From Heterostelium album PN500 (lineage: Eukaryota; Evosea; Eumycetozoa; Acytosteliales; Acytosteliaceae), in the NCBI RefSeq assembly GCF_000004825.1, contig NW_008805090.1:772227-836226 (forward strand): a stretch of DNA of 64,000 nt, read 5' to 3'. Of the stretch, positions 4,980 to 45,685 are shown piece after piece. The translations under genes and the position numbers were made by a program. Position 1 is the stretch's first letter, and every line of letters begins with the position of its first letter. Under the pieces are notes generated by a model. It did no database searches. It was not told the origin of the DNA and saw nothing but the letters and a program-made list of their open reading frames with translations.

Positions 4980-6026
4980 ATGGATACAATTGAATTAGTA
5001 AATTCAACATTACCATCACATTTGAAAATGACACCGGAAGGAATCCTAATGAGAACGGCATCTTCTTATTTGGTGACATGCGCGTTGTATAGTGTGATTA
5101 AATTAGAGATCTACAAGGAATTTGATGAAGGACCGAGATCTATTTTCGAGATTGCTCAAGAGAGAAAAATAAATCCGGATTTCCTTCAGAGAACGATGAG
5201 AGCGCTCGCTTCACAAGGTATTTTCAAGATGGTGTCGAAAGATGGCAACGACGGAATGTATGACCACACCGAGGCGTCGCGTCTTCTCGAAGATCCAAAT
5301 GGAATAATCGGACTTGTCGAATTCATGACCTGTCCAATGGTGTTCTCAGGATTCAAGAACCTCTCCGATACCATCACGATGGGTGCGCCTCAGGGACCGT
5401 CGCCAGTCGGTTCCTACTCGATGCTGAATCTCGTTCCCAAGGTGCGCGAGATCATGGCGATGTACAACAAATCGGTGGCGATCGGCCGTAAGATGTCTAC
5501 CAACGTGTTTGTAGACGACTTTGATTTGTCACGCTATGAAATCAAGACATTCGTGGAGTTGGGCGGTGACGGTGGACATCTCACAAAGCGACTACTCGAG
5601 AAATATCCATCGATTGAATATGGAGTCAATGTTGACAACGCTTCGAATCTGACAAAAGCGACTACCGCCAGATACAGAGAGGAATCTGGTGATTGGACGA
5701 AATCTTTTAAGACCACCGAACAATGTTATTTCTCTTGTTTCCAGATGCACGAACTTGATGATTCTGTCATTATGAAACTACTCACCAACATTGCCAGCAA
5801 ATTGAAATCCACCAGAAATAAGTTCTTCTTGGTCGAACCTTACATATCTGAAAGCAACGAAATGAGTTTTGGAGCGGTACTCGATCTCAACATGATGCAC
5901 TGTATCAGAAACGGCAAGCTTAGAACCGATAGCGAGTGGAAGCAACTCATTGAGAAAGCAAATTTAAAGATTGAATCAAGATCATATCATCCAAATCAAG
6001 TAGGAGTTATCGTTATATCAAAATAA
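4980..6026 (+). CDS. SAM-dependent O-methyltransferase (family 2)
   Basis: Intronless, 348 residues, the usual length for this family. An N-terminal winged-helix dimerisation region (about 1-110) contains ALYSVIKLEIYKEF and FLQRTMRALASQGIFK. The S-adenosylmethionine site is FVELGGDGGHL (about 185-200), a variant of the D-x-G-G-G-x-G motif. QMHELDD (about 253) keeps the histidine that acts as base in plant and fungal enzymes, and LVEPYISE plus LDLNMMHCIRNGKLRTDSEW match the late family blocks. Dictyostelids use such enzymes to methylate polyketide signals such as the DIF-1 precursor; whether this one does is unknown. The coding sequence is GC-richer than its surroundings, as is common for expressed genes here. 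Confidence 0.9.
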   Translation: MDTIELVNSTLPSHLKMTPEGILMRTASSYLVTCALYSVIKLEIYKEFDEGPRSIFEIAQERKINPDFLQRTMRALASQGIFKMVSKDGNDGMYDHTEASRLLEDPNGIIGLVEFMTCPMVFSGFKNLSDTITMGAPQGPSPVGSYSMLNLVPKVREIMAMYNKSVAIGRKMSTNVFVDDFDLSRYEIKTFVELGGDGGHLTKRLLEKYPSIEYGVNVDNASNLTKATTARYREESGDWTKSFKTTEQCYFSCFQMHELDDSVIMKLLTNIASKLKSTRNKFFLVEPYISESNEMSFGAVLDLNMMHCIRNGKLRTDSEWKQLIEKANLKIESRSYHPNQVGVIVISK

Positions 6027-6406
6027 CTAAATAATCAAACTAACTAAATAAATAGCAAATTAAATGAATATACAAATTATAATTAAGTGACTCGCAAGCT
6101 AAGCTAGAGTATAAACTACTACTAGTTTATTAATTGTTTTATTATTATAATACAATACATTTATTATTGTTGTTTGTTTTGTTATTACTTGTTTAAAGTA
6201 AAAAGAAGAAAAAGAAAAAGAAAAAAAGAAAATAAACTCTTTTTTTTGTTTGATTTTTTTGGTAAAAGGAAATTTGATTTGTATTAATTACACATTATAT
6301 TATTTACTTTTGTATTTTTTTTTTTTTTTTTTTTTTGTTTTATATTGTTCTAACTATTCTAAAAACCGACTACACTACTACTTCTACTGATAGAAGATGC
6401 TACAAT
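6027..6406. other. Intergenic between convergent genes
   Basis: Contains only 3' flanks: an A/G-rich tract at 6195-6235 and a run of about 18 T at 6317-6336. Nothing else supported. Confidence 0.6.
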
Positions 6407-24695: not shown

Positions 24696-26887
24696 GATAG
24701 TTGAGTATTAATAAGTTATTAATTCGTTTGATAATCTATTAAATAAAATGTATAACATACCAGCACTATATAATGTAAGTTGATTGATTAATCCTGGTGT
24801 TGGAACATTTGTAACTGATATTGAATTTCTTCTGTTGAGTATGATATACAGTTGACTTGATGTCAAGGTATAACTGGCTGTTATACTGTTGAAATTGAGT
24901 TGAATCGAATAGGTTGTTGTAACTGTTGGTTTAAGAATATCGAGTGAACCAACTGCAACAAACATTGTAGTGTTTAGCTGTTGTGTATCTAATGGAATGT
25001 TTGTTGTATGATTCAAGCTGTCAGTGAGATCTACACTCACTTGATATTGTTGTTGCTGCTGCTGCTCATTCAAATAGGTAATCTGTAGGTATGGTGTAGA
25101 GATATTGGTGACACTGTCCAACAAATGACGCATTCTAATGAATAGAGGTTGTGGTTGTATAATATCTGGACAACTGACTGATGGTACTGTAACATCGGTG
25201 TTATTGCTGTAGACTTCACCGGATTTATACTGGTAGTAATTCTTTAGTTTATCGTAACAACCAATCTTCATTGTTGTGCCACAAGTCACAGGGATGTAAG
25301 CTGCCGATACTTCAGCTGTGAATTGCATGAAGCTGTGGTCGTTGCTTAGCGACTCAGCGTTGGCCGCAGTAAACTTGAGATTAAGATTATCATAGTCAAC
25401 ATAGCATACTTCTATACCGGATGAATCGGAAACATTGAATGATATCCACTTGGAACGACCAACATTGTAAATGTTGATATTCATTATCTGTGGAGGATAG
25501 ATATCGTATTGTGCGGTTGTCGAGTTATAGAGATTCAAAGTAAATCCACTACGCAAAAAGAAAACCAGCGATCTAATATTTGGATGATATCCAACCATTT
25601 GAATGGTACCGTTGTAAAGATTACCTGTGACACCGTATGGATATTGTATAGTTGAGAGAGTACTCTTTGAGGTGGTCACCGTGTAGCTTGGCAGCGTTAA
25701 TCCTTTTGAAGAATAACTAACGTTCATCTGGAAGTAACGGGTGTCAATCATTGCCAGACCATAGGAACCGATAGTTGGGGGAGGTGGCAAGGAGCCAGAT
25801 GTTTCACTGTACGTCAGTGTATTGCCAGTTAGCAATGACTCTGAGAAGACAAGAAGATATTGTCCAAAGCCAATTCCATTTGGCAAGCTAATGTAACGGC
25901 TGTACTCCAGAGTGGTTAGGTTACAGAATGGCAGGATATCGTCATCTTTGAATAAGCTACCAATGGTTATACTTGAGACATTTCTCGGGTCTGCTCCTAC
26001 GATTGTGAAACTAAGACGGTACATCACTGGCAATCCCGAGAGGTTGTCGACCGGCACAATGGTGGCACTGGTAGCAATTATCGAAGTTGCCAAATCCGTT
26101 GGGTAATTGTATGGCACTGGCAATAGAGTTGTATTCGATATCAGATTGGCAGCGAATCTCAATTGTGGATTTACATAGTTTGACAATGCCGGATACACCA
26201 TTACTGTGCTGCCAGCAGAGTCGAATGTTCTCAGTGACGTTCCCTGTGTGATAGGTGTGTAGAATGAAGTATCGAAATTATAAAAGTTGGGAACATTTGC
26301 AAAGTTTCTAGCGACAACATACAACAATGGATCCATTGGAATTGTCGAGTTGCTATAGATTCCATATTGATAGCCGTACGATACTATTGTGACCGGTGCC
26401 ATTGGTATCGATGCAGGTGTTACACACTGGATCGGTGTTGCAGTGAGATCGAGAACCTCCATTGAAACACCGTCGGCATAGATATAAAAGAATGTGTAGA
26501 GTTTCGAGTAGGTACCGACTGAAATCTTCTGGACATCAGTGACATAGGTTCCATCGGTTGGAACTCCGCCAACCAAACGGTCGGTCATTCCAACCACCGA
26601 AGGACTACTATAGTTTACAAAAGAATTATATGTTACACCATGAGAGATATTGGAAGCACTATAAACCAATATCAAACTACATTGAGGTGTAGCATTGAAT
26701 GTCCATTCATTTGAATTTGTTATTCCATTTACACTGATAATTTCAACTATAATTTTTTTATAGATTTTTTTCATATTAATATTTCACTTATCAATCAATC
26801 ATCGAAACTGAAAAATAACTTACTATTAGAGTATACAATATTAAAGAATAAAAAAGAGTAGATTATACCTAAAAATAGTTTATTCAT
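22507..26887 (-). CDS. Large type I membrane protein with EGF-like domains (ComC-like)
   Basis: Exons 26887-26824, 26746-24761, 24651-24325 and 24269-22507 give 1379 residues. Exon 1 encodes the signal peptide MNKLFLGIIYSFLFFNIVYS. A long ectodomain rich in Ser/Thr/Asn/Tyr with many N-x-S/T sites follows. Near residue 1010-1085 are two EGF-type modules (CHNGTCNLQTQMCECSTGYG; then MCSGFGTCSPLGVCVC). The membrane segment is IPVAVVVPIVGLTILIAVAI (about 1318-1342), followed by a short basic tail with Ser-rich KTRLSRKSSVSMK. This is the layout of dictyostelid ComC and related adhesion or communication proteins, which act at the cell surface during development. Family placement is from layout and motif style; a specific orthologue is not claimed. 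Confidence 0.88.
24653..24695 (+). repeat. (AAT)n microsatellite in an intron
   Basis: About 14 AAT/TAA triplets next to the acceptor of the intron 24652-24760 of the EGF-like gene (minus-strand reading ATT). Only intron filler. Confidence 0.9.
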
Positions 26888-28949: not shown

Positions 28950-29985
28950 ACACGAGAGGCAACCAGCATAACTACGAGAGGAGTCTGGCATAGTAACGAG
29001 AGGAAACCGGCGTAACTACGAGAGGAGACCGGCATAACTACGAGAGGAGACCGGCATAACTACGAGAGGAAATCGGCATGGTAATGAGAGGTAACCGTCA
29101 TAAAGAGAGGAAACCGGCATAACTACGAGAGGAAATCGGCATGGTAATGAGAGGTAACCGTCATAAAGAGAGGAAACCGGCATAACTACGAGAGGAGACT
29201 GGCATAGTAACGAGAGGTAACCGTCATAAAGAGAGGAAACCGGCATAACTACGAGAGGAAACCGGCATATCAACTAGAGGAAACCGGCATAGTGGGGAGA
29301 GGAAACCGGCATAGTGGGGAGAGGAAACCGGCATAGTGGGGAGAGGAAACCGGCATAGTGGGGAGAAGAGACCGGCATAACTACGAGAGGAAACTGGTAT
29401 ATCAACTAGAGGAAACCGGCATAGTGGGGAGAGGAAACCAGCATAGTAACGAGAGGCAACCAGCATAGTGACGAGAGGAAACCGGCATAGTAACTGGAGG
29501 TAACCGGCATAGTGACGTGAGGAAACCAGCATAACGACGAGAGGCAACCGGCATAGTGGGGAGAGGAGACTGGCATAGTAACGAGAGGACCGGCATAGTG
29601 ACGAGAGGAAACCGGCAGAGTAACGAGAGGAAACCGGCATAGTGACGAGAGGCAACCAGCATAGTAACGAGAGGAAACCAGCATAGTGACGTGAGGAAAC
29701 CGGCATAACGACGAGAGGCAACCCGCATAGTGGGACGAGAGGCAAACGGCATAGAAAGAGGAGACCGGCATAACTACGAGAGGCAATTGGCATAGTAACG
29801 AGAGGAAACCGGCATAGAAACGAGAGACAACCGGCATAACGACCGAGAGTCTACGAGTGGAAACCCGGCATAACTACCAGAGGAAATCGGCATAACTACG
29901 AGAGGAAATCAGCATGGTAATGAGAGGCAACTGTCATAGCAACGAGGCATCACTCATAGTAAGGAGGCAAAAGGCATGGTAAAAG
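28950..29985 (-). repeat. 22-base tandem array, about 45 units
   Basis: Unit on the minus strand: TATGCCGGTTTCCTCTCGTAGT, written here in two parts as TATGCCGGTTTCC and TCTCGTAGT. Variants end CGTCACT, CGTCGTT, CGTAGTT, CGTTACT or CTCCCCACT. Because 22 is not a multiple of 3, each frame reads the same 22-residue cycle over three units (such as MPVSSRSYAGFLSSLCRFPL). The longest open run here is 189 residues. Confidence 0.9.
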
Positions 29986-30425
29986 GACTTGGAAAAGAAG
30001 AAAGAGATAAAAGGAGATAAACAAAGTGTTAGTAAAACAAAGATATATATAAGTTAAAGTTATAATTAATAGTTATTGCTTACAAAATTATTTGTATTTG
30101 AAAAATAATGAAAAATGACATTGTGAATGAAATTATAGGTTTATATAGTTTTAAATTTGATTCGTTAACTTACAGTTTGAACTCAAAATTGGCGGTAACT
30201 GTTAAGCGCCAATTAAAAGTATGAATTAATATTCAAATTTGAAATATAAATATTAAAATTAATTAAATAATTCATTTTATTATAATATAATATTCAAAAA
30301 TAAAAAAAACAGGCGATCATTACCAATGAAGAAACAACAAGCTTAATTTTCAATTTTATTAATTTATTGAATTTGCAACACCCCATTTTTATTTGACAAG
30401 TTCATCTTTTTTTTTTTACAAACAT
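28950..30425 (-). mobile_element. Undescribed 22-base-array repeat unit, copy 1
   Basis: Read on the minus strand, it opens with an A run, GATGAACTTGTCAAATAAAA and TGGGGTGTTGCAAAT, has about 440 bases of unique leader (30425-29985), then about 45 copies of a 22-base motif (29985-28950). The leader is nearly identical to those at 36655 and 41925. It holds a TATA-like CTATATAAACC about 30 bases before an ATG that opens MSFFIIFQIQII and meets a GTAAG donor-like site in the same place in all copies. No transposase, terminal repeats or target-site duplication was seen, so the mobile label rests only on dispersed, recent-looking copies. Confidence 0.7.
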
Positions 30426-31217
30426 CAACTAACTTTTAAATTTAAGACATCTGTATATTTAAATATTATTCTATTTAATTGAGAGTATCGGATAAAATGA
30501 CGTTAGCTATTTTCAAAATTTGGAGGTTTCTTATTATTATTGATTATTTTTAAATCTAATTTAAATATTAATATACATGTAAATACTATTAATATCGAAA
30601 TTTTGCTTTTCAATATAAGCAATATTCATATTAATTTGTTATTTCTAAGTAAGTTTTATTAATATCACAATATTTTCAAGAAAAATATTGATCAAAACTA
30701 ACATATTTCTTTCAAATTTCTATCAAATATAGTTTTAGATAGTGATCGTTGATAATAATAAAGAGATAGTTGATTTCTCATTTACTCTCTTCATTTAAAA
30801 ATAAGAAATAAATTAATTTTAATTTTATTTAAAGAACTTATCTTTTTTTTATTTACTTTTTCATTTTATTATTGATAGTTTTCAATTATTGTCATAAAAT
30901 TGTTGTTTTGCCACTTACGCAATTGAAAGTGTTCAATCACTACTAGTGATTAGTGAAACCTTTTGAATAAACAAAAGAAATAATATCAGTATCATATATA
31001 TGTCCCAATACAATCAAAAACAATACTGTATTGAGAAAAAAAAAAATTAAAAAATATATTGGGTGAAAAATTTCCAAATAAATTAGTATTCTTAAATTAC
31101 ATAAATATACATATATAGATATTATAAATTTAGATATTAGCTTTTAAATCTTTTTTACATCATAATCAATATACACTCTCATAAATATATTCATTTTTTT
31201 TATAAATTAAATAAATC
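30426..31217. other. Intergenic, upstream of the poly-Gln gene
   Basis: A/T-rich spacer without recognisable gene. Confidence 0.6.
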
Positions 31218-31750
31218 ATGCATATGTCTCAACAACTTCAAGATAAGATAGATAATTTTCCAATTACCAGCTATTCGTGGGAATTAGTTGGTGTTTATTT
31301 CAAAAAGAAGGCTGAGCTCGATGATGAAGAAGATCGAATGAGTTTCTTTTATTACTTTATCCATGAATTCACTCGAGTCAAAAGGGAATTCGATGAACAA
31401 CAGCAGCAACACAAACAACAACCACAACAAGATAATAATATTGTTAATTATAAGTCGCTGGAGGAAGTTATCCAAAGCTTTCAAATCACAAGTTTATCAC
31501 TGGATTTAGTAACAGTTTACAACCAAAAGAAACTCGAGATTAAAGATGAGTCAGATCGAAATCTGTTCCTTTTGTACTTTTCCAAAGAAAGATCTAGAAT
31601 AGCCAGAGAACAAAATCAACAACAGCAATTACAACAACAACAGCAACAGCAACAACAGCAACAACAGCATTTACAACAACAACAACAACAGCAACAACAG
31701 CAATTACAACAGCAACAGCAACAGCAACAACAGCAACAACAGCAACAACA

Positions 31751-31796
<46 letters not shown>

Positions 31797-31820
31797 CAGG
31801 AACAGCAACAACAGGAACAG

Positions 31821-31855
<35 letters not shown>

Positions 31856-32285
31856 ACCAACTATAAAGAACAACAATAACAATGATAACGATAATATAAA
31901 GTATAAGAAAAACAACAACAATAACACTAAATCAATAGGAAATCAAAATACCTATCAATTTAGAATTCCAGTTAATCAAAATAAAATAGATTACAATATT
32001 AATAACAACAATATAAACAAAATTGATTACATTCATAATAATAAATATTATATTCAAAACTACAAAATAAAAATCATTGACAGATCAAAACCAAACCAAA
32101 ACACCTTCCAATTTAGAAGACCAACTAATTGGAAAGAGAACAACGACAACAAAATCATCAAAATCAACACCAACATTGACAACACTGCCAATTACATTTT
32201 AAACATTATTAACAATATCAAAAACAAACCAAAACCAAATAATAATACCTATCAATTCAGAATTCCCAGTAATAAAAGTAAATAA
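31218..32285 (+). CDS. Poly-Gln protein with duplicated N-terminal motif and C-terminal YQFRIP repeats
   Basis: Intronless, 355 residues. The N-terminal third has two diverged copies of one helical motif: FPITSYSWELVGVYFKKKAE (about 14-33) and FQITSLSLDLVTVYNQKKLE (about 92-111), each followed by D-R-x-x-F-x-x-YF and a basic helix. A Gln tract of about 80 residues with His, Leu and Glu interruptions follows, then a Lys/Asn-rich region with three spaced motifs NQNTYQFRIPVN, NQNTFQFRRPTN and NNNTYQFRIPSN, the last at the C terminus. No known domain recognised. It is the only gene without visible damage in the 28-45 kb repeat region. Codon usage is A/T-heavier than in the housekeeping genes nearby. 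Confidence 0.75.
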
Positions 32286-32336
32286 TAATTATAATAACAG
32301 GATGGAGTGGTGATCTGGATTCTAGGTTCTGGGTTT

Positions 32337-32860
32337 GGTGGTACTGGTCGATGCATGGGTGGCAGGGTGGGCACGATCGAAGGATATTTGTTATGGTAAT
32401 ATGTTATTTATTTATTTATTTATTTATTTATTATTTTTTATTATTTATTTATTTACAATGTAGTTTATTTATTAATATCATATTTGTATATTTTATATAA
32501 AATAGTAGATCAATTTTAAAAGAGTCTGGTTTCTTGACTATATGGTGGTGGTACTGGTCGTTGCATGGGTGGCAGGGTGGGCACGGCCGAAGGATCGTTG
32601 AAAAGGTAATATGTTATTATTAATTTATTTATTTATTTACAATGTTGTTTATTTATTAATATTTTATTGGTATATTATATTTAATAAGAAGATCAATGTT
32701 AAAAGAGTCTGGTTCTTTGGTCATGGTCTTGGCTATATGGTGGTACTGGTCGATGCATGGGTGGCAGGGTGGGCACGGCCGAAGGATCTTTGAAAAGGTA
32801 ATATATTATTATAAATTTATTTTTATTATTTATTTATAATGTTGTTTATTTATTAATATC
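32337..32860 (+). repeat. Triplicated unit of about 200 bases with GC-rich core
   Basis: Three direct copies begin at 32337, 32547 and 32739 (spacing 210 and 192). Each has the core GGTGGTACTGGTCG, then TGCATGGGTGGCAGGGTGGG and CACGGCCGAAGGATC, followed by GGTAATAT and an A/T tail of ATTT repeats. The G-rich core contrasts with the A/T tails. The core is partly open (TGCATGGGTGGCAGG reads as a short peptide), but no gene is supported. From 32861 to 33184 only A/T spacer is seen. Confidence 0.85.
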
Positions 32861-33184
32861 ATATCTGTTTTCTATATTTAAATAATATAAAGTAAAATTC
32901 AGGTTAACGAAGCTCTAGGTTTTTTTTGTAGGTCTATTAAATAATTTAGGAACGAATACAAATATGATTGAAATTAAATATAAATGGATAAATATAATTA
33001 TAAATTAATTTTATAAATATATTAGTTTTATTTATATTTAATTTTAATTATTCTTGTATTCGATATTTTATTTATTTATTTATTATTTGTTTATATCTTT
33101 AATTAATACTAACAACTGACTACATTATTTTTATTATTCTATTTTCCAATATTATAATCAAGCTATTCCAAGTGATCCATTTCA

Positions 33185-33793
33185 ATGGGTTCGTCCTTTT
33201 TTTTTTCTTTCCAGGGTCTGGGATAACTGGGTGTCATTGCTTGTGATCCTTGCCTCTCTTATCAAGCGTGACGGCATGTCTCGATCAGTGAACCCACTGA
33301 TGAGAGCCTAGTTATTAGAGAAACCTGGCGACCTGTACACCCGACCCGCCAGTTGGGGAGATTGTTGTGAGCGGTTGCCTGTGGACGGACGAAGCTGGGA
33401 TGAGCGCACTTGCTTGCAGGTGGTCTTGCACATGGTAACCTCTGTGTTGATCTACAGGATGCATGGCACTGGGTCAAGGGTAGGGAAACCTCCAACACAT
33501 GTTACGGCTTCATATAGTCTGAAAGCAGGTGATACATACGCTGCTAGTCTGTCGCATCTTCGGGTTTGGCGACACAGAGCAGATGGAGGCGACATTCTCT
33601 GTACAGAAGGCAACTCCACAGCTATCACTTTCTTTGTTGCCTCTTCGAAGTTGTTTTATTTGCTTCGGCTTCTAACTCCGCTGTCGATTAGGAACAACAA
33701 CAATTAAAGATGCTGCCGATGGTTTGTGGCAATAAATCCATCGGGGTCTCTAGGTGCCAGTAGACTCCACCTCCACGTGGTTGGCACCGGAAA
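33185..33793. other. GC-rich island of unknown origin
   Basis: About 600 bases at roughly 50 percent G+C in a region near 20-25 percent. Both strands carry open stretches: minus 33498-33262 (with NNLPNWRVGCTGRQVSLITR) and plus 33375-33707. No start, intron or family could be settled. The dense, non-repetitive composition suggests a retroelement remnant, a structured noncoding RNA or transferred DNA. It ends at the inverted repeat starting 33794. Confidence 0.5.
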
Positions 33794-33885
33794 CTCATGG
33801 ATCGATAAGATTTAAAATTTTTTTTTTTTTTTTATATAGTAAAATATGTTTAAAATTAAAAAATATTTTCTTATCGATCCATGAG
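33794..33885. repeat. Perfect 16-base inverted repeat with T-rich spacer
   Basis: CTCATGGATCGATAAG (33794-33809) is matched by its exact reverse complement at 33870-33885. The 60-base spacer holds a run of about 16 T. It lies at the edge of the GC-rich island and could be an element terminus or a strong hairpin. Confidence 0.9.
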
Positions 33886-34317
33886 GCTGAGAGAGTCTAA
33901 ATTTTAATCTTTGCAGCTTTCGATCGATCGATGTTAACTTTGATCTTGGATCACCCACACTTCACCCACCACACTCAGACTCACACCCACACTCACCACA
34001 CAACTCAAAATTTTTTTTTCACTTTTTTTTTTTCACTTTTTTTTTTTTTTCACCTTTTTTTTTTTTTTGCCACCAAAGTCAAACAACACATAATTAATTA
34101 TTTAATTAAAGTAATTCAAGCAACAATCAATCTATTTATTCATATTTATATATATTTTTAATTAACACTATTTAGATATAATAAGGTAAGTTTAATATCA
34201 TTTATGAAACATAATAATAATAATCATCATTATTTATAAAAACTGTAACTTATTAGTTAGCATTAACACATTTATACATTTTTATATATTTAATATCTAT
34301 TTATGATTTTATTATAG
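33886..34317. other. Low-complexity spacer
   Basis: CAC/CACAC-rich stretch (33950-34005) followed by repeated CACTTTTTTTTT blocks (34005-34070) and A/T spacer. A donor-like AAGGTAAGT at 34183 could be left over from the lost 5' part of the proteasome gene. Confidence 0.5.
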
Positions 34318-34975
34318 GCTCTTGTTGAGTGTCAATCATATAGATTATCATTGGATGATGTACCATCTGTAGAATATCTCTAAATATATCGCTGGAATTC
34401 AACAAGTAAATATACTTTGAACAAAACAAAAAGATTATAGCGATCGAGTCAAATATTGATACTAATTTAATGAATTTTAAACAATTGTTATAGAGATACA
34501 CAAAGTGGTGGTGTTAGACCATTCGGTATTTCTACATTTGTCGGTTTCGATTCAGACGGTACACCAAAACTTTTTCAAACAGATCCACCCGGTTCATTGA
34601 AGGAACAGGCAGCCGCCATCGGACGTAACTCAAAGACTGTCAGTGAATTTTTAGAGAAGAACTTTACAGATGAGAGTGATACTGCTTCAATTAAATTGGC
34701 TGTTAGAGCATTGCTTGAGGTAATAATATATTATTCATTTATTACTATAAATATAGTAAACAACTATGACTAACTATTATTATTATTAATACTATTGTGA
34801 TATTAACAAATAAATAGGTTGTAGAATCAGGAAATAAGAATATTGAAATTGCTATCAATAAATGAAATGAACCAATTAAATTGTTCAAGGAATCCGAAGC
34901 GAATAGTTGGTAGATGAAGTCGAAAAGGAGAAGGATGAAGAGAAGGAAGCTGCTGTAACCCCTCCAAAGAAATAA
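34318..34975 (+). pseudogene. psmA7: Proteasome subunit alpha type-7 (alpha4) pseudogene, 5'-truncated
   Basis: Three former exons with surviving splice sites (34318-34405, 34494-34719, 34818-34975). They read ALVECQSYRLSLDDVPSVEY, then [20 protein letters not shown] and [17 protein letters not shown] with [20 protein letters not shown], then VVESGNKNIEIAINK and a C-terminal VEKEKDEEKEAAVTPPKK: clearly alpha4 of the 20S core. Damage: the catalytic-ring N-terminal half is missing; a stop and frame change follow VEYL in the first exon; a TGA interrupts the third exon after AINK; a further frameshift follows SEANS. The introns remain, so it arose from DNA duplication, not from mRNA. A functional copy must lie elsewhere. 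Confidence 0.9.
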
Positions 34976-35254
34976 ATGAGAAGATTAACATAAATTAGTT
35001 AACATTGTCAATCAATCAATCAACCAACCAATATATAACAAACATGTAGCTAATAATAATAATAATAACAACATTGTTTTCTTCACCTACTTCTACTTTT
35101 ATTAATAATAATACTACTTATTTCCTTGATGATAACATAATACACCCCACACTCTTTATAAATTAAAACTTAAAACAACAATATCAATCAATCAAATTTT
35201 AAATAAAAAGTTGATATCTTTCAAATTCTTTATAATTATTTCTTTTATTAACAG

Positions 35255-35885
35255 AGTTGATTCCACTTAGTTGCTGAGTTACCGGATTGAGTTAGTTACC
35301 GGACTGAGTAAGTTGACTTAGTTAACTCAGTTACTGGACTGAGTTAATGACTTAGTTGACTCAGTTACCGGACTCAGTTACCAGATCGAGTTAGTTACCG
35401 GACTGAGTTACCGAACTCAGTTACCGGACTGAGTTACCGGATTGAGTTAGTTACCGGACTGAGTTACCTGACTGAGTTACCTGACTGAGTTACCTGACTG
35501 AGTTACCTGACTGAGTTACCTGACTGAGTTACCGGATTGAGTTAGTTACCGGACTGAGTTACCTGACTGAGTTACCTGAGTTACCTGACTGAGTTACCGG
35601 ACTGAGTTAGCTGACTCAGTTACCTGACTGAGTTACCGGACTGAGTTACCTGACTGAGTTACCTGAGTTACCCTGACCGAGTTACCTGATTCAGTTACCT
35701 GACTCAGTTACTTGACTCAGTTGATGTCTTAGTTGACTCAGTTACCGACTGAGATATGAGTTACCGGACTTAGTTAGTTACCAGACTCAGTTGATTCCAC
35801 TTAGATACCGGTTTGACTTAGTTAACTCAGTAACTGGACTGAGTTGATGACTCAGTTGACTCAGTTGACTCAATTGCCATACTTA
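35255..35885 (+). repeat. 13-base tandem array, about 45 units
   Basis: Consensus GAGTTACCGGACT with common variant GAGTTACCTGACT and longer units where GAGTTA is doubled. Stops occur in the sense frames and 13 is not a multiple of 3, so it is noncoding. Ends diverge gradually into A/C-rich sequence near 35890-36070. Variants create many TGACTCAG sites. Confidence 0.9.
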
Positions 35886-36650
35886 GTTGCCCGAAGCCAG
35901 AGTTTCCGTCAACTCCACAACTCAGATACTGTTGATACTTACCTCAACTACATATCTTAGTTTCGATCAACTCTACATCTCAATTACCATCAACTCCATA
36001 ACTCGGTTACCGATAAACACACCACTCTCAATTTCCATCTGCTCAACTACTCCTTACCATCAGTTTGACAAATCGATAAAATAAAATCAAAAGATATAAA
36101 TGTAAAGGTAGTTTAAATTTTTATTGAAATAGTAATTTTGTTGAATCCAAACATTCATAAATGTTGAATTACTTGACCAGGAGGAGAAGTAGCAAATGTC
36201 ATTCCACTACCACTAATCCAACAACATCATCAACTCAACTTTATGAAATATTTCTGGTAATGAGGTTTTGATGAATTTTTTGTTGTTGTGGTTGTTGTCA
36301 GTTGTGGTTCAGTTGGTAGTTGTATTTTATTAAATTGTCTAAATGTTTATTATAAAATCTTTAATAATTTTATTTGATGTCTGAGTAATTAAGATCTTAA
36401 TTCGGAAACAACTGATTTAATTTAATTTTAACAGTGAAGTGAAACCATTCAACCTATAAAAAGATTTAAATTTAATAAATTAATGAAAATAATGATTATA
36501 GATATTTTAAAAAGAATCTAGTATCTATTCTTTTTATAAATTCAATAAATGAAAGAGATATTTATAACATATAGAATTACTTATTGTAACTTTATTATTA
36601 ATAATATCTTTCAAAAATTAAATTTTTAATTAATTATTATAATTTTAAAA
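35886..36650. other. Spacer between arrays
   Basis: The first 180 bases look like decayed array (CAACTC and GTTACCG remnants). The rest is A/T-rich without a gene. Confidence 0.5.
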
Positions 36651-36654
36651 AAAC

Positions 36655-37935
36655 AACATTTTTTTTTTGCAACAAAAAAAATAAAAAAAAGATGAACTTG
36701 TCAAATAAAAATGGGGTGTTGCAAATTCAATAAATTAATAAAATTGAAAATTATGCTTGTTGTTTCATCATTGGTAATGATCGCCTGTTTTTTTTATTTT
36801 TGAATATTATATTATAATAAAATGAATTATTTAATTAATTTTAATATTTATATTTCAAATTTGAATATTAATTCATACTTTTAATTGGCGCTTAACAGTT
36901 ACCGCCATTTTTGAGTTCAAACTGTAATTTAACGATTCAAATTTAAAACTATATAAACCTATAATTTCATTCACAATGTCATTTTTCATTATTTTTCAAA
37001 TACAAATAATTTTGTAAGTAATATCTAACAATTATAACTCTAACTTTTTTATATTTATGTTTTATTAACTTATCTCTTTTTATCTCTTTCTTCTTTTCCA
37101 AGTCCTTGTTACCATGCCTGTTGCCTACTTACTATGAGTGACGCCTCTTCTATGCCGGTTGTCTCTCGTAGTTATGCCGGTTTCCTCTCGTAGTTATGCC
37201 GGTTTCCTCTCGTCGTTATGCCTGTTTTCTTGTTACTATGCCGGTTGCCTCTCGTCACTATGCTGGTTGCCTCTCGTCACTATGCCGGTCTCCTCTCATC
37301 ACTATGCCGGTCTCCTCTCATCACTATGCCGGTTGCCTCTCGTCACTATGCCAATTGCTTCCTGTCTTTATCCGGTTTCCTCTCGTCACTATGCTGGTTT
37401 CCTCTCGTCGTTATGCCGGTTTCCTCTAGTAATTATGCCGGTTGCCTTTCGTCGTTATGCTGGTTTCCTCTCGTCGTTATGCTGGTTTCCTCTCGTCACT
37501 ATGCTGGTTTCCTCTCGTAGTTATGCCGGTTGTCTCTCGTAGTTATGCTGGTTGCCTCTCATCACTATGCTGGTTTCCTCTCGTCGTTATGCTGGTTTCC
37601 TCTCGTCACTATGCGGGTTGCCTCTCGTCACTATGCCTGTTTCCTCTCGTAGTTATGCCGGTCTCCTCTTTCTATGCCTGTTTCCTCTCGTAGTTATGCC
37701 AGTTGCCTCTCGTCGTTATGCTGGTTTCCTCTCGTCACTATGCTGGTTGCCTCTCGTCACTGTGCTGGTTGCCTCTCGTCACTATGCCAGTTTCCTCTCG
37801 TCGTTATGCCGGTTTCCTCTCGTCACTATGCTGGTTTCCTCTCGTAGTTATGCTGGTTTCCTCTCGTAGTTATGCCAGTTGACTCTCTTCGTTATGCTAG
37901 TCGCTTCTTGTAGTTATGCCAGTCGCTTCTCGTTT
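36655..37935 (+). mobile_element. Undescribed 22-base-array repeat unit, copy 2
   Basis: Same structure as copy 1 but on the plus strand: leader 36655-37130 with GATGAACTTGTCAAATAAAA, a TATA-like box CTATATAAACC near 36948, ATG at about 36975 opening MSFFIIFQIQII and a GTAAG site near 37012; then about 36 units of the 22-base motif (37130-37935). Leader identity to copy 1 is roughly 95 percent by eye. With copy 1 it forms an inverted pair about 6.2 kb apart. Confidence 0.7.
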
Positions 37936-38410
37936 CTATACCGTTTGTCTCTCGTTTCTATCCCAGTCCATTTCCTTTATTTCGACCACCACTCCATCCT
38001 CATCACGATATCTCTATCTGCCATTCCTTTCTCCAGGTACAACCAAAAAAAAGTTTTTTTGTTGCTGGTTGCTACCTGTTTCAAACATATATTTATAATA
38101 TAATACCTCTTGTAAATAAATTCATTATAAATACTTTTTATTTTTTAATATTAATAAATATAAGCTATTTATCTGAGCAATTTATTTATTTATATCTTTA
38201 TTTATTAAATTTTAAAGAAACAACAATAATGAATATTTTATTTAATTTGTTAAGTTTGAAACCATCATAGAATTTGATAGGTCCTCCCGCTTATAGCAAC
38301 TCAATGGTTGCTTTCAATAATGAGACTTTTTAAGGAAAAGATTGAGTATCAATTTCATGAATATTAGTTATATACTTTTTTATTTCACTGCAATCGCAAT
38401 CAAGATTGAT
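37936..38410. other. Spacer
   Basis: Diverged end of the array, then A/T spacer. Nothing supported. Confidence 0.5.
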
Positions 38411-40165
38411 TTAATTTCCAATAAAAGATATTAGATTAGTTTGGTTGTTAAAAGACACAGTTGGATGATATACAAATCTCTGACCCCATCTCCATCCTAC
38501 ATCACACTTTATTTGTTGTTCCGATTGTAATTGTTGTTGTAGTTTCAATTGTATCTCTTTTTCCTTTTCTTTCTTTTGTTTTTCTTGTTGTAGTGTTGCT
38601 TCGTCTACATTATTGTTACTTGATTGTGCATCAACAATTGTTGATGACGATGTAACTGGTTGTATATTAGATGTTGATGTCGATAATCTAAAATTAACAT
38701 TTTAGAATTATATTAATCAAATCAACTGACTCTTCAATAATTCATTAAGAATTCAACTATCACAATTCAAACAGTTTATGGACACGATTTCAAATAACTT
38801 AAATTAATAATCCAGCTGTTTAACAACAAATAAAAAATTTTTGATTAATATCAACATTCAATGAATCAACAAAATATCAATCTACCAAAGTTAACATAAA
38901 GAAATAACCAACAAGTTAATATACAATGAATACCAAATTAGTTAATTAAGAAAAGATTTCTGAGATTGGACAACTGAACTGGTCGAAGAAATCCAACCGT
39001 ATAAATACCATGGAAATCCACTATGGAAATTAATTATTCAACATTATTCAAAATTACCAAATAGTATTATTATCTTCAAATTGTAAATTAAATAAAATAT
39101 TATCTGTAAATATTATACTGTAAATTATATTCCTAAACTATATTACATTTATTAAATCCATATTCCTCGTACCAAAACTATTCCTAATTTTATATCAAAG
39201 TTGTAAGTATTATAAGTATAATATGATATTATTTCCATTGTAAAATAACATTCGATAATGATGGTGTTTTGTTTGTTATTGTGTTGGTGTTTGTGTTTGT
39301 TGTTGACTGTGGATTAATTAGATTTTTTAAAACTAATGAAACTTTTACTGCCACTCCAAGATGATATAGATCTACTTAATAAACTCTCAAAAACTACTTT
39401 CTTTCTATCTTCGACTGTTGAATATCTAATGTTGATTCTCTACCTCTTTAGAATGACAAAGTAGATACCGTATTAGATCTACCACCAATTGTATGAATTG
39501 AAAGTGAATTGTTAACATTTAGTGACGTTGATGATGAATTATTATTATTATTATGTTATGTTGATGTTGTTTGTTTTTGTAAATTGGGGTATAGTTGAAT
39601 GAAAGGATCATCTATAGTAACAATACTGATGTCACAATTATTATTGTTCATTCATTTAAAGTTCCACAAACCCAACATTCTCTGACAATATGAACAATGA
39701 ATATTGATATAGTGGTTGTTGTTATCTCAGTGGTCACTGCCATCAGAAGCATTGCCATTACTGTTGTTACTATAATATTCCAACCACATATCGCCAGAAT
39801 AACAGAGATTCTTGCTTTTAACTCACAGCTATCACTTGTAATCTTTGACGACGATAACAATGCTTTCAAAGGGTTTCTTTTATCGTTTTTCTGTACATTT
39901 GACTATATTTAATGATATAAATGAAAACAATCACAAACACTATAATTAATATAAACCTAAATTTGTATCAGTCAATTATAAATAATAATAAAATACAAAC
40001 CCAAAACTCGATATCTAACAATGGTCCTCTTTTAAATTAAATAATTAATTGTGACATTGATATATGTACGTACGTTGTTGCTGTGACAGTGAATCCGGTA
40101 ACTTAAAATAGAGTCGTTTGTTACATGATAAAATCTTGATCGATTGTGTTTTGTCACTGCATTCT
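38411..40165 (-). pseudogene. ZC3HC1/NIPA-like gene remnant
   Basis: Minus-strand pieces: a Cys-containing exon from 40163 (SDKTQSIKILSCNKRLYFKL, then PDSLSQQQR), a piece at 39869-39800 with ARISVILAICGW, then in another frame INIHCSYCQRMLGLWNF (about 39700-39660), then DISIVTIDDPFIQLYPNLQK, and a last exon 38687-38411 with a coiled-coil-like KQKKEKEKEIQLKLQQQLQ ending in TAA. The pair L-x-CGW followed by C-x2-C-x5-GLWNF is the second zinc-binding block of the NIPA/ZC3HC1 family, which acts at the nuclear pore or in mitotic ubiquitylation. Stops and frame changes between pieces show decay. The family call is moderate; the exon order is consistent. Confidence 0.45.
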
Positions 40166-40583
40166 ATAAAGCAAGAAAGCACACTGAAATGCAACAACAA
40201 AACAAAGTATTTTATTATTATATATAATAGTAAGAGTTAACACATACCAAGCTAATATATAGATGCGGTGTCTCATTATACTGGTTTAAAATATAATTAA
40301 TATTATTTATCATTTTTTTTGAGTTTAAAAATTTATTGATCAATGAAGAAAATTTGTGTATACTCTTTCATACGCTTAATATTGTTAATTTGTTTTAAAT
40401 TACATTTATCTCAAGTATCACATTTAAATCAAACACTACACATATTATTTATTTATTATATTATTATTATTTATTTATTTAAATTCTAAAAGTACTCACC
40501 TCTCAGAACTAAGCTATAAGTATCAAATGATGTTTCCTTGTAATCAATCAAATTAAAAATATATGTTACTACTTAATATATAG

Positions 40584-40899
40584 CCAGGTGTAATTGGATC
40601 GTATAAAACAAGTAAGTAAGAAATAATTAATTAAAAATGGAAATTATTTAGTTAAAACTAATTGTTTTTAAAATAATTTTTAATTAAAAGTTGTAAAAGG
40701 TGAAAAAGTATCTATTTTTGTAGATTTGATGGGTGATGGAAAAAAAGGATTTGTTGATCAATTCTATAAAGAAAAGACTGTTTATATTGGAGATGGAATA
40801 TCTCAATTGGATAGATTAGATTATTTCAGTGGTAATGGTGGTGTGGCAATCGAAATGACTGAGAGAATCTATGAATGTACACCATTCCCCGATTTACTG
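40584..40899 (+). pseudogene. nsun6: NSUN6-like tRNA m5C methyltransferase fragment (PUA domain)
   Basis: Two former exons (40584-40611 and 40691-40899) joined by a normal intron read PGVIGSYKT, VKGEKVSIFVDLMGDGKKGF, TVYIGDGISQLDRLDYFSG and GVAIEMTERIYECTPFPDLL. This follows the PUA domain of NSUN6, where a GNGISELSR-type block and a G-I-R-M-T-E-block occur in the same order. The following methyltransferase domain is absent: the frame hits TAG at 40900, exactly where the repeated fragment (copy B) begins. No upstream exons were found. So it is a fragment of about one domain, with intact reading frame but no catalytic part. Confidence 0.7.
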
Positions 40900-41395
40900 T
40901 AGCTTTTGTTGGTTCGGGAGCTTCTGTAGTTGGTTATTCGGTAACTGGAGTCATTCGATCTATTTCCTGACTGAAACTTTGCTCCATAATGCATGATTGT
41001 CTAATAATTAAGGAAGAAGAAGTTTGTTAATCCAACCACTTTAAAAAGAATAGCAGCACGTGCAGTTAGTTTGGAACCACTAGAGAGATATTATCGTACG
41101 GTACTGAATGAAGGTAATATAATAAAGTATCTTATTATATTTAATTACTAAACGGTTTATCATATCTATCTATATTATTATTATATTCTTATAGATTAGG
41201 CTTTGATTGGATTTCCTGCTGATAACTTCGAGTCATTAGATCAGCTGACGAAGTGCATTGAGAAGACTACAGGTAGTATAGTATTCTTCAATGGTGTCTA
41301 CATAGTATCGGGAATATTGATGTCCAAGTACACCTCGACCAGGCATGAATCTACTTCTCCATACTTTACAATTGTCAAAGATATCTTTTGATAAA
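40900..41395 (+). pseudogene. Unidentified duplicated gene fragment, copy B
   Basis: Second copy of the 28230-28760 sequence. Open patches read VGSGASVVGYSVTGVIRSIS (40908-40970), RIAARAVSLEPLERYYRTVL (41049-41110) and, after a TTATAG acceptor, ESLDQLTKCIEKTTGS and FFNGVYIVSGILMSKY (41229-41335). Stops lie between them. Copy B is slightly better preserved. The family is not recognised. Its left edge coincides with the end of the NSUN6-like fragment. Confidence 0.55.
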
Positions 41396-41920
41396 ATAAA
41401 GTAATACAGATAAGATAATGTTTTAAACAAATTTAGAGTATCAAGTTAGAATTGATAGTGCTTCATTTGAAGTCGATCACCACTATATGTATATATTCAT
41501 TTTATTTAAATTCTTTGATCATTTAATTATCGAGACAACTCACCTATTCAATATATCAAACATAATTAATTCTTTCATTTATCTTCTATAGTAATTAAAT
41601 TTTAATGATTTCATTCTTTGTTTCTTTGATTCACAATTCTTTTAACAAATCACATTTAATATGATCTTTAAAAATCTCAAAGTATCAATAGAAACATATA
41701 TATTCTAAGTCACTCTCATTTTCTAAAACTGTATTTTAAATAATCTTTTTATATTTTTATTAGTTGACGCAAATAAAAACCAATTGTCAACTCTATTATC
41801 ACTAATTGAATTCTCTCATAGTGATAATTGTAAAGTGATAGATAACATTTTTGATTTAAGTAATCAAGAATATCTTATCTTTACAATATTAATATTTCTT
41901 CAATTATTAAAAAAAAAAAA
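41396..41920. other. Spacer
   Basis: A/T-rich; an open stretch of 62 codons at 41784-41972 runs into poly-A and is not convincing. Confidence 0.5.
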
Positions 41921-41924
41921 AAAA

Positions 41925-43105
41925 AAAAATCAAAATTTTTGCAACAAAAAAAAAGATGAACTTGTCAAATAAAAGTGGGGTGTTGCAAATTAAATAAATT
42001 ATTAAATTGTTAACAATTAAAAAATAATGCTTGTTGTTTCTTCATTGGCAATGATCGCTTGCTTTTTTTTATTTTTGAATATTATATTATAATAAAATGA
42101 ATTATTTAATTAATTTTAATATTTATATTTCAAATTTGAATATTAATTCATACTTTTAATTGGCGCTTAACTGTTGCCGCCATTATTGAGTTCAAACTGT
42201 AAGTAAACGAATCAAATTTAAAACTATATAAACCTATAATTTCATTCACAATGTCATTTTTCATTATTTTTCAAATACAAATAATTTTGTAAGTAATATC
42301 TATTAATTTTAACTTTAACTAATTTATATCTTTGTTTTACTAACACTTTGTTTTATCTCCTTTTATCTCTTTCTTCTTTTCCAAGTCCTCTTTACCATGC
42401 CAGTTGCCTACTTACTATGAGTGATGCCTCGTTGCTATGAAGGTTGCCTCTCATTACCATACCAGTTGCCTCTCGTCGTTATGCCAGTCTCCTCTCGTAG
42501 TTATGCTGGTCTCCTCTCGTAGTTATGCCGGTTGCCTCTCGTCACTATGCCGGTCTCCTCTCGTAGTTATGCAGGTTTCCTCTCGTAGTTATGCAGGTTT
42601 CCTCTCGTAGTTATGCCGGTTGCCTCTCGTCACTATGCCGGTCTCCTCTCGTAGTTATGAAGGTCTCCTCCCGTAGTTATGCAGGTCTCCTCCCGTAGTT
42701 ATGCCGGTTGCCTCTCGTCACTATGCCAGTCTCCTCTCGTCACTATGCTGGTTTCCTCTCGTAGTTATGCCAGTCTCCTCTCGTCACTATGCCGGTTTCC
42801 TCTCGTCGTTATGCTGGTTTCCTCTCATAGTTATGCGGGTTGCCTCTCGTCGTTATGCCGGTATCCTCTCGTAGTTATGCCAGTCTCCTCTCGTTACTAT
42901 GCCGGTTTCCTCTCGTAGTTGTGCCGGTCTCCTCTCGTTACCATGCCAGTTGCCTCTCGTCGTGATGCCGGTCTCCTCTCGTAGTTATGCCGGTTTCCTC
43001 TCGTCACTATGCCGGTCTCCTCTCGTTATGCCGGTCTCCTCTCGTAGTTATGCCGGTCTCCTCTCGTTACCATACCAGTTGCCTCTCGTCGTTATGCCGG
43101 TCTCC
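41925..43105 (+). mobile_element. Undescribed 22-base-array repeat unit, copy 3
   Basis: Leader 41925-42395 (GATGAACTTGTCAAATAAAA at 41955, TATA-like box near 42225, ATG at about 42251 opening MSFFIIFQIQII) followed by about 32 units of the 22-base motif (42395-43105). It lies in direct orientation to copy 2 and, like copy 1, is close to a copy of the unknown fragment (copy B at 40900). Confidence 0.7.
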
Positions 43106-43109
43106 TATC

Positions 43110-43425
43110 ACCACTGTCAATGCTCATAATCTCTGTCATTGCCTACAACCTCTGTCCATCCACCTAACCTCTGTCAATGCTCACAACTTCTGTTCATCCA
43201 CCTAACCTGTGTCATTGCCTACAACTTCTGTCCATCCATCTAATCTATGTCATTGCCTACAACTTCTGTCCATCCACCTAACCTCTATCATTGCTTACCA
43301 TCTCTGTCCGTCCACCTAACCTCTGTCATTGCCCACGATCTCTGTCATTGTTCACAATCTGTGTCGGTCCATCCAATCTCTGTCATTGCCCACAATCTCT
43401 CTGTCGATCTCTGTCTGTTGATCAA
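43110..43425 (+). repeat. 38-base tandem array, about 8 degenerate units
   Basis: Unit built from CCTCTGTCATTGCC, TACAACTTCTGTCC and ATCCACCTAA. It follows the 22-base array without a gap, so two unrelated periods adjoin. Partly open on the plus strand, but stops (CTAA) recur; no gene claimed. Confidence 0.85.
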
Positions 43426-44628
43426 AACTCAGTTTGATCCTTAAATCATTATCTGAATTTACCTTTTAAAGAGATCTCTCTTTTATGTTGATTAAACTCA
43501 CTAAATAAAAATAAATTCGTTAATATTAATATCATTAGAGATTTACGCTATGAGTATTTAATAATCTCAACGTTGACCTTTTTTAATTTTATTTAATCAC
43601 TTTATCTTGTTAATCTTTCTTTAACCTTCATTTGTTCCTGTAATAATTGAATCCAAACTGTCGACGATCATCACCAACACCACTTTTGTTCTATTTCCAG
43701 CACCTCCAATACAAGTATAACTTTGAGAGTATAGTCAAACTAATATCAGCAAAATCTTCATTCTTTAGAAACAACCAGCATCACCAGCACTACTCGCATA
43801 GTATATTGACAACTTTTGTCAACAAAAAAATATCTAATCTAACATCACTCTATAATTTGTATTTTTTAATAATTGTTGGTTAGTATTTATATAGTTTAGT
43901 TTACTACTTTTCGATATGAGTATTTGGTATAATATAATATCTTACTACACATATAACACTTGACTAGGCTTAAATTAGAGTTGAATCTTCTAATTCATTA
44001 CTTTCTTAAAATAATTTATTAATATTCTTCATTAAAAACAAGATAAACCAATATAAACTCTATCTTAAAACAAATACTTTGGAAGTAGATCACCAATATA
44101 TAAATATAAATATTATTTGTTTGGATGTGGGATATATATATTGTTTGTGTGGTAGTAGGTAAAACTTACAAATATTGTCATTTTTGGTTTTGGCTATTTG
44201 AGGTAGTGATACTGTAAACGATGTCTGCAGGTTGGATGCTGATTAGTTATTTATTTCTGTCGTAAATACACTATACTGGTTTGAGGGTCTGAAATATTTA
44301 TTTTAAAATTTAGATATGTTTTTTAATTTTTCTATCAAAAAATAAATAAATATATCTAAATTTTCTCAGATCATTGCATCTTGAATGATATCAATTTAAA
44401 ATGATTAAGATGAATAAGAACTCAGATGTGCTCTAAAATGTTATCTTATCTTTCAATATTTATCAATTGAATAAAATAAATAATAATAATATTTTATTAT
44501 TCATACAATCAGTTTATATCATTTTTTCTGTCTATTTAATTTATTAGATGTTTGGCTACTTTGTTTATTTTTAATATTTGTAACAACCACTTTTAGTATT
44601 TATTTTAACAACTAGCAGAGCAAAGTTA
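43426..44628. other. Spacer with one unidentified open stretch
   Basis: A 78-codon open stretch at 43647-43883 has codon-like content (QYKYNFESIVKLISAKSSFF) after a TTTCCAG acceptor-like site near 43700; it may be an exon of a decayed gene. The rest is A/T spacer. Confidence 0.4.
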
Positions 44629-45600
44629 TTTTTTTTTTTTTTTTTTTGCAAAAAAAGATTTGTTGACTCATGATCAGTCAACAAATTGCAGGTATTGATA
44701 TTAACCTGCTAGTTCGTGTTTTATATTATATACATTCTCACACAGGCCGTGAGAAATAGCCAATAAAATATTATTATGATTATTGTTATTATTGTTTATA
44801 GTTATTAATAATTAATAAGTTGAGAGTAGTGTTAGGATAGAATAGATCTAACAGTAGTTGAGTGTTGATGAACAACAGTATAAAGTGGTGGCACGTAGTT
44901 GGAAGGATTTAGATTCCAATGAGATTTAAATTTACCCGTTATTGCAGAGCAATCGACATTGACTCCTTGGGAGATAGAATTAGCTATTGTGATGTTAAGC
45001 TTGTGGTAATTGGCATCGATTAATTTGGTGTAATGGGTGTCTGCTCTCTTGACGGTATTTTCCAGCTTTTATTGGGTACCATCACCAAACATTTAACAGG
45101 GCATCGCCTGCCATAACCAATGTACGATAGCAGCAGTAAGGTGGGTGAAGTGGACAGTAGTACGAATAGGACCGTCGAACTTGATGCACGAGTGCTTCCA
45201 ATTATGTAGTCTATAGTTACAGTACTTGTGGTATATATGTTTGATAAAGGAAAGGAACTGCTGTGAAACTACATTCCTGCATTTTAAGAAGAAATGCTCA
45301 TGTGGGTTGCATGAGTTCAGTGAAGGTGTCACCACAGAACTCACAGATATGACCAGTGCGCTTGTAACCAATTTTTTTTTTTTTTTTTTTTTTTTTGCAA
45401 AAAAGATTTGTTGACTCATGATCAGTCAACAAATTGCAGGTATTGATATTAACCTGCTAGTTCGTAATGTAACCAATGGGTTTTCCCGCTATGCCAAAAG
45501 GGAAGTTAACTAATTATGATCTGCTCCACAAGCATCACACAGATGAACCTTCTTACAAGAAGCGCTTGTGGTTGAAGCGAATCCGCATGCGGACATTTTC
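44629..45600 (-). mobile_element. LINE relic (TRE-like) downstream of tRNA-Arg
   Basis: Read on the minus strand it starts near 45600, just past the tRNA. It shows KKVHLCDACGADHN, then (after the nested insertion) YKRTGHICEFCGDTFTEL and, in the next frame, HEHFFLKCRNV: the C-x2-C...H-x4-C zinc motif found at the C terminus of LINE reverse transcriptases. Coding-like sequence continues to about 44880 (LENTVKRADTHYTKLIDANY). It ends with a two-hairpin 3' region and poly-A (44716-44629). Frameshifts and stops make it dead; the reverse transcriptase core is missing. TRE3-like placement after a tRNA fits known dictyostelid LINE targeting. Confidence 0.75.
45373..45467 (-). mobile_element. Nested, extremely 5'-truncated LINE 3' end with target-site duplication
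   Basis: About 70 bases nearly identical to the 3' end at 44629-44716 plus a poly-A tail (poly-T on the plus strand). It is inserted in the zinc-motif region of the larger relic and flanked by TGTAACCAAT on both sides (45363-45372 and 45468-45477). The duplication and tail mark target-primed reverse transcription that stopped almost at once. Confidence 0.85.
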
Positions 45601-45612
45601 AAATAAAATATT

Positions 45613-45685
45613 TGAGACATGCAGGGCTTGAACCTGCGACCTATTGGTTCGTAGCCAATCGCTCTTCCAACTGAGCTAAAGTCCC
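45613..45685 (-). tRNA. tRNA-Arg (anticodon ACG)
   Basis: Minus strand: acceptor GGGACTT against ATGTCTC (one U-U mismatch, one G-U), D arm GCTCAGTTGGAAGAGC, anticodon stem ATTGG/CCAAT with loop CTACGAA (anticodon ACG), variable AGGTC, T arm GCAGG-TTCAAGC-CCTGC, discriminator A. The single acceptor mismatch may be tolerated; otherwise canonical. No intron. Confidence 0.88.

Follow-up and report, generated by a model that had tools for sequence, protein, structure and literature searches.

The DNA analysed here, referred to as the window, is a stretch of 64,000 nucleotides from Heterostelium album PN500 (contig NW_008805090.1, positions 772,227 to 836,226 of the forward strand), and the subject of this study is a repeat element at positions 28950 to ~38230, in which an array and a leader on the minus strand, an interior of ~6 kb, and a leader and an array on the plus strand form one unit. 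A preliminary description of the window had reported three dispersed repeat copies, each a leader followed by a 22-base array, at 28950-30425 (minus), 36655-37935 (plus) and 41925-43105 (plus). All three copies are real, with coordinates and strands as reported. It overlooked that the first two face outward as an inverted pair around a shared interior, an arrangement that recurs in the genome. The dispersed nature of the repeat stands, while its division into three separate units does not, the copy at 41925 being a fragment. The leader identity, given as about 95%, is slightly lower (94% and 90% for copies one and three against copy two; 94% and 89% in a second alignment), and the 32-45 units claimed for the arrays compare with main rows of 40.9, 34.2 (+) and 29.3 in Tandem Repeats Finder, the last, from the third array, lying below that range. 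The features are as follows.

28952-29987, minus: left outward array of 22-base units, transcript sense minus
29988-30417, minus: left leader, promoter-like, with TATA-like box 30147-30141, ATG 30121-30119, donor GTAAG 30083-30079 and acceptor AAG 29990-29988; 94% identical to the right leader
30425-31200, plus: non-coding interior segment common to other loci
31218-32285, plus: glutamine-rich (Q-rich) open frame of 355 amino acids, with two related segments of ~60 amino acids (by eye)
32338-32790, plus: three G-rich exon-like segments (32338-32382, 32547-32592, 32745-32790), 62-67% GC
33156-33905, plus: conserved block, with acceptor-like TTTCTTTCCAG, then a likely non-coding RNA of ~547 nucleotides (33206-33752) and the ribozyme at its end
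33753-33905, plus: predicted self-cleaving ribozyme resembling that of hepatitis delta virus (HDV), with P1 33753-33759, P2 33761-33766, a long P4 hairpin and J4/2 GCTGAGA
34179-35178, plus: captured fragment, with introns, of the host proteasome alpha-7 gene, present in four of nine copies
35250-35890, plus: 13/26-base array (TTGACTGAGTTACC...), preceded by acceptor-like TTATTAACAG
36060-36600, plus: shared non-coding interior segment adjoining the right leader
36677-37102, plus: right leader, with ATG 36976-36978, donor from 37014 and acceptor AAG 37100-37102
37103-37960, plus: right outward array of 22-base units
37961-38230, plus: tail with an AATAAA-type signal, common to the right arms of both C7 copies and C12 and to both arms of C9
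41380-43400, plus: broken left arm of another copy, with an upstream segment (41380-41925), leader to 42385, 22-base array to 43106 and 38-base array 43110-43400

Genome-wide copies and their outward-facing arms

The genome searched comprises 32.9 Mb in 39 contigs, which are labelled C with a number; copy counts are lower bounds, and the leader search scored the best candidates only. This search yielded 30 matches. At least 19 of these, counting the three in the window, align over 410 bases or more and are spread over 8 contigs, so the repeat does not reflect a single local duplication, which was the first half of the outcome that would have undone the preliminary description. Fourteen of the 19 near-full leaders form seven outward-facing pairs (minus then plus) at a spacing of 6-8 kb, and seven loci, on C28, C10, C11, C7 (two copies, 73 kb apart), C9 and C12, carry both leaders together with all or part of the interior. 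Interior probe 33000-34165 matched 8 places across most of its length, and probe 30430-31600 is represented at ten places, the window counted in, by a piece of 650 bases or longer. The order at the fetched loci, in either orientation, is array, leader, interior, leader, array. One leader only is retained at C3 and C25, and the C17 and C4 copies end at the contig end, within the Q-rich frame. The third window copy is a left arm, as its upstream segment, 41380-41925, separates the leader from the interior in C9 and C17. An old, diverged leader pair lies at C12:734-741 kb, with an interior unmatched by any interior probe save for one short stretch by one leader, whose translation, judged by eye, is similar to those of C10 and C3. 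A PIF/Harbinger-type DDE transposase relic, possibly a nested insertion, is located between these diverged leaders (5873-6142 of the fetched locus). Nine further matches to this relic occur in the genome, some within longer open frames.

Alignment of 20 leaders revealed the donor TTTGTAAG in all 20, the CCAAG acceptor in 17 and the ATG in 16; the three leaders lacking CCAAG carry the 38-base array type, and one additional leader has a one-base deletion. The promoter-like leader with its conserved splice donor and the constant spacing of TATA-like box, ATG and GTAAG, as previously described, are borne out, and the CCAAG acceptor is present downstream too. The proposed signal-like coding first exon fared differently. 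Four leaders have no ATG, and when exon 1 was fused in silico with the array, the frame ran into a stop after 10-75 codons for 15 of 17 leaders. The two remaining frames stay open for the whole of their short arrays (56 codons, lacking an ATG; 134 codons in C9). In 16 arrays, open frames were not longer in the actual unit order than after shuffling (P from 0.11 to 0.99); one array is open for 379 codons. A protein-coding 22-base array was rejected on the grounds of these stops and of the neutral unit order. The case for a coding exon is weak, and a spliced non-coding leader-array transcript would fit the leaders better than a signal-peptide gene; the earlier interpretation is in this sense partly supported.

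The 22-base array is found almost exclusively beside leaders or at a leaderless second arm (C3:2060 kb, C25:918 kb), with exceptions at C10:485 kb and C17:1181 kb. In the third window copy it is followed by a different, 38-base array (about 43110-43400), which at C10 and C11 replaces the 22-base array in one arm. The two arms of an element are homogenised, since the two leaders of one element diverge by 1.38% on average and same-side leaders from different elements by 2.98%, and the true arm pairing is the single best of 5040 possible pairings. At C25:924.9-926 kb, one outward array comes to within a few hundred bases of an apparent exon (by eye) of a TMEM14-like host gene, and array transcripts could there run into host genes.

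Within the interior, the Q-rich frame is interrupted by stop codons in several other copies and diverges like its surroundings; a sub-threshold Presenilin match (E 0.00088) was set aside as it falls in a glutamine run. After every G-rich segment come GGTAATAT and a spacer rich in AT (6-13% GC). These segments were considered as structured RNA and rejected, their folding being no better than that of shuffles. The alpha-7 fragment matches Pfam Proteasome (E 1.7e-13), with alpha type-7 subunits as its best PDB matches; its likely parent is located at C11:469307-470357 (90% identity), and in three other copies it is 93-96% identical to that of the window. The remaining five of nine copies have in common a different segment of about 0.5-0.8 kb in this position. 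The retention of introns indicates that segments were exchanged or captured at the DNA level.

The conserved block and its predicted ribozyme

Block 33156-33905 is the best-preserved part of the element, with ~1% difference between copies as against ~5% around it. Six copies compared with the window's own, the C12 copy being excluded because of its interrupted interior, differ at 35 of 3282 aligned sites in core 33206-33752 (1.07%) and at 589 of 11421 in nearby non-coding flanks (5.2%). The C12 copy displays the same conservation over 800 bases (98.5%), and C25 is the one of nine interior copies in which the block is lost. Low divergence sets in near 33156 and gives way again within about 30 bases of 33905, where the ribozyme ends, and the segment 33200-33905 folds better than its shuffles (z -4.5, 20 shuffles).

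The predicted ribozyme is a nested double pseudoknot in the order P1-P2-P3-P3'-P1'-P4-P2', with a P1 of 7 bp and a P3 with a 7-nucleotide loop, as is expected of the HDV-like fold; its cut site is predicted between 33752 and 33753. Rfam RF02682, the model of the HDV-like ribozyme of F. prausnitzii, matches 33753-33817 at full length (27.9 bits; E 0.013 in 2 kb, 0.12 in 18 kb). The true P4 is probably a hairpin of 17 bp that encloses a long AT-rich loop. J4/2 (GCTGAGA) precedes P2' (AGTCTA) near 33895, outside the Rfam model's own match. P1, P2, P3, the P3 loop, J4/2 and P2' are identical in all eight copies, changes being confined to the P4 region; in the six copies compared with the window's, no change occurs in 258 aligned sites of P1-P3 or in 114 of J4/2-P2. 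J4/2 reads GCTGAGA in all eight copies and GCUAAGA in the F. prausnitzii model, and one of its cytosines is the candidate catalytic residue. The element's conserved RNA thus looks like one that ends in an HDV-like ribozyme, for which cleavage is predicted.

The genome-wide ribozyme model search scored the best 61 of 841 candidates, and the matches listed (n=12) comprise all eight element copies and four others. These four (C11:65155, C25:102094, C4:1690559, C3:2558268) mark the start of a second repeat family, and the one read downstream encodes a reverse transcriptase of the type lacking long terminal repeats (non-LTR; RVT_1, E 5.4e-21), R4-like by eye. Their ribozymes score 31-34 bits, likewise under the Rfam cut-off of 44; the sequences of P1 and P2 differ between both families with pairing retained. 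P. pallidum is reported to hold NLTR-C (PMC5006619); the best alignment of its reverse transcriptase was with R4, although the grouping could not be settled in that report. Another report (PMC3774820) describes an HDV-like ribozyme in R4 of Ascaris. The R4-like retrotransposon of this genome is a possible match to NLTR-C.

Other identities were tried for the core and rejected. Coding capacity was dismissed because its open frame, at 131 codons, is of borderline length (matched by 44 of 1000 shuffles) and has no Pfam match; 8 of 12 variable sites in the ATG-started part alter a residue. Other Rfam families gave in the core, besides the HDV match, three weak minus-strand matches only (up to E 10), far under cut-off. 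WCCCAYAA is the promoter motif of Class I RNAs, and none of its 6 matches in the window, where 9 are expected by chance, lies near the element. Guide-like pairing of core and array reaches 11 bases at most (shuffles attain 12), and a hammerhead-like core near 33290 has CTGATGA and GAAAC with no stem II by eye.

Origin of the element and rival explanations

On balance, and with modest confidence, we favour the reading of 28950-~38230 as a copy of a ~9-kb dispersed element, probably non-autonomous, foldback-like and mobile, which would have spread at the DNA level and would produce a ribozyme-ended non-coding RNA. Mobility, transcription, splicing and cleavage are inferred from the sequence, as is any role for the RNA. 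The long inverted repeats would constitute the element ends, and in each arm a promoter pointing outward would drive a short first exon that is spliced to a satellite-like array, giving likely non-coding transcripts. An interior sense-strand transcript would carry the conserved RNA of ~550 nucleotides, and self-cutting by the HDV-like ribozyme just downstream would leave this RNA with a fixed 3' end and no poly(A); its job might be recognition by the mobilising machinery, or some use by the host. More tentatively, and with less confidence than in the element itself, we propose that a DNA-level mobile element here employs an HDV-like ribozyme as the 3'-end former of its own conserved non-coding RNA, between two outward array-transcribing promoters.

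Several observations weigh against this reading. The tails outside the arrays are of several kinds and are swapped between arms, as would be expected if arrays recombine, and they differ between copies, so that the element termini are not definable. Target-site duplication was not seen by eye at C25, the sole locus inspected, no systematic test having been made, and, as in the preliminary description, no transposase was found among the scanned open frames of the window, the element copy included. The window and C12 copies have 38359-41377, past the tail, in common at 91-94%, and C12 and C17 likewise share long stretches outside the arrays, both of which suit segmental duplication. The window element's own arms differ by 3.96% as against 0.3-1.3% in the other six pairs; its right arm is closest to C12, which suggests that this element is probably recombinant. 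The right leader, at 4.7%, diverges hardly less than the flanks. As for the conserved block, the contrast of core and ribozyme with the flanks, though present in each of the six copies singly (p from 6e-5 to 6e-12), is assessed by a calculation that takes both sites and related copies as independent, and gene conversion could be an alternative cause of the low core divergence. The folding of the core before the ribozyme barely exceeds that of its shuffles (z -1.2; 12 of 100 shuffles fold equally well), which leaves a structure of the core alone unsupported. The eight ribozyme copies score 25.6-28.2 bits, short of the gathering cut-off, and the same search gives below-cut-off matches in 8 of 14 control genomes, so that the Rfam score alone is weak. 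In favour of the ribozyme, a descriptor of its whole fold matches once in the window, in none of 40 dinucleotide-shuffled windows and in 1 of 2000 local shuffles, and recovers three of the four retrotransposon-family ribozymes; against this, the descriptor was composed after the ribozyme had been seen and with P4 loosened to 4 bp, and it misses the C3 copy owing to one P4 change.

Some of these points would be accommodated by a host multicopy family of non-coding RNA genes, in which core and ribozyme serve the cell, copies arise by segmental duplication and are maintained by selection and gene conversion, and the arrays are passenger satellites. Conservation is indeed concentrated on core and ribozyme and falls weakly on the leaders (3.6% pooled versus 5.2%), the tails recombine as duplicated loci would, and the shared outer stretches and the proximity of the two C7 copies point the same way. 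We nevertheless judge such a family less likely, considering that outer flanks past the tails are unmatched at most loci, that copies lie in both orientations, that four copies have the captured gene fragment in common and that the C25 core is deleted. A retrotransposon remnant, in which the ribozyme would mark the 5' terminus of an element copied by reverse transcription, as it does in R2/R4, could draw on the genome's own non-LTR family, of which four found copies start at an HDV-like ribozyme and the one read downstream has a reverse transcriptase. It is improbable here, as the ribozyme is internal, at the downstream end of the conserved block and with no boundary at the cut site, no reverse transcriptase was found in the element, and the captured gene retains its introns. 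Least credible of all is a protein gene whose signal-like exon would be joined by splicing to 22-base units that are themselves coding: the conserved TATA-like box, donor and acceptor and the frames of 379 and 134 codons suit it, whereas the missing ATGs, the early stops in joined frames and an array order equal to shuffled order oppose it.

The favoured mobile element comes closest by anatomy to a foldback-type transposon, to which it is likened and not assigned; the one trace of a transposase that might point to an autonomous partner is the PIF/Harbinger-type relic at C12:734-741 kb. As described in the literature, the Drosophila foldback DNA transposons Galileo and Tetris similarly have long inverted ends with internal tandem repeats and are modular and rearranged; Tetris is apparently non-autonomous (PMC4079207). 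Long terminal inverted repeats with internal arrays are found here in seven pairs. In contrast to foldback transposons, the present element has no defined termini, target duplication or linked transposase, its arms are outward promoter-like, and it holds a ribozyme inside. Pack-MULEs and Helitrons are gene-capturing DNA elements and likewise carry host gene fragments with introns, whereas a MULE or Helitron protein was not among the frames scanned. DIRS-1 of Dictyostelium also has inverted terminal repeats in a dictyostelid, and PMC5006619 reports it missing from the P. pallidum assembly; its reverse transcriptase and tyrosine recombinase were not found in the element.

The ribozymes of R2, R4, Dong and L1Tc, as PMC3774820 and PMC4035085 present them, are repeat-borne and have the same nested double-pseudoknot layout and J4/2 motif, and mobile-element HDV-like ribozymes appear there chiefly as processors of retrotransposon RNA. 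R2-type ribozymes occupy the 5' end of a reverse-transcriptase element or lie close to it, whereas the present ribozyme ends an internal block, with neither a reverse transcriptase found downstream nor copies starting at the ribozyme. No description of this repeat or of a dictyostelid HDV-like ribozyme was found among the titles and abstract openings listed, a coverage outside which most subscription journals fall. If true, the placement of such a ribozyme at the end of the best-conserved block in a non-retro repeat would represent a new role for it and would offer a handle on the upkeep and spread of foldback-like repeats with satellite arrays.

Neighbouring features of the window

A tRNA (transfer RNA) gene is present in only 2 of 25 loci scanned, apart from one near the third window copy, and targeting of the element to tRNA genes was rejected on this count; a centromeric nature was judged unlikely, from positions alone. 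Beside the element, 24708-26774 contains a minus-strand open frame of 688 amino acids with no Pfam match, and a weak minus-strand match to the mir-9461 precursor at 40142-40206 (28.9 versus 84 bits, E 0.01) is probably due to chance. Segment 38687-38966 matches both ends of an insertion in the C12 copy and might represent a solo terminal repeat from a different mobile element. Lastly, 44626-45365 is a repeat of ~740 bp, of which over 30 dispersed copies exist with identities of 89-96%; it ends ~250 bases from a tRNA-Arg gene (45613-45685, minus strand) and is possibly the end of a tRNA-targeted retroelement.

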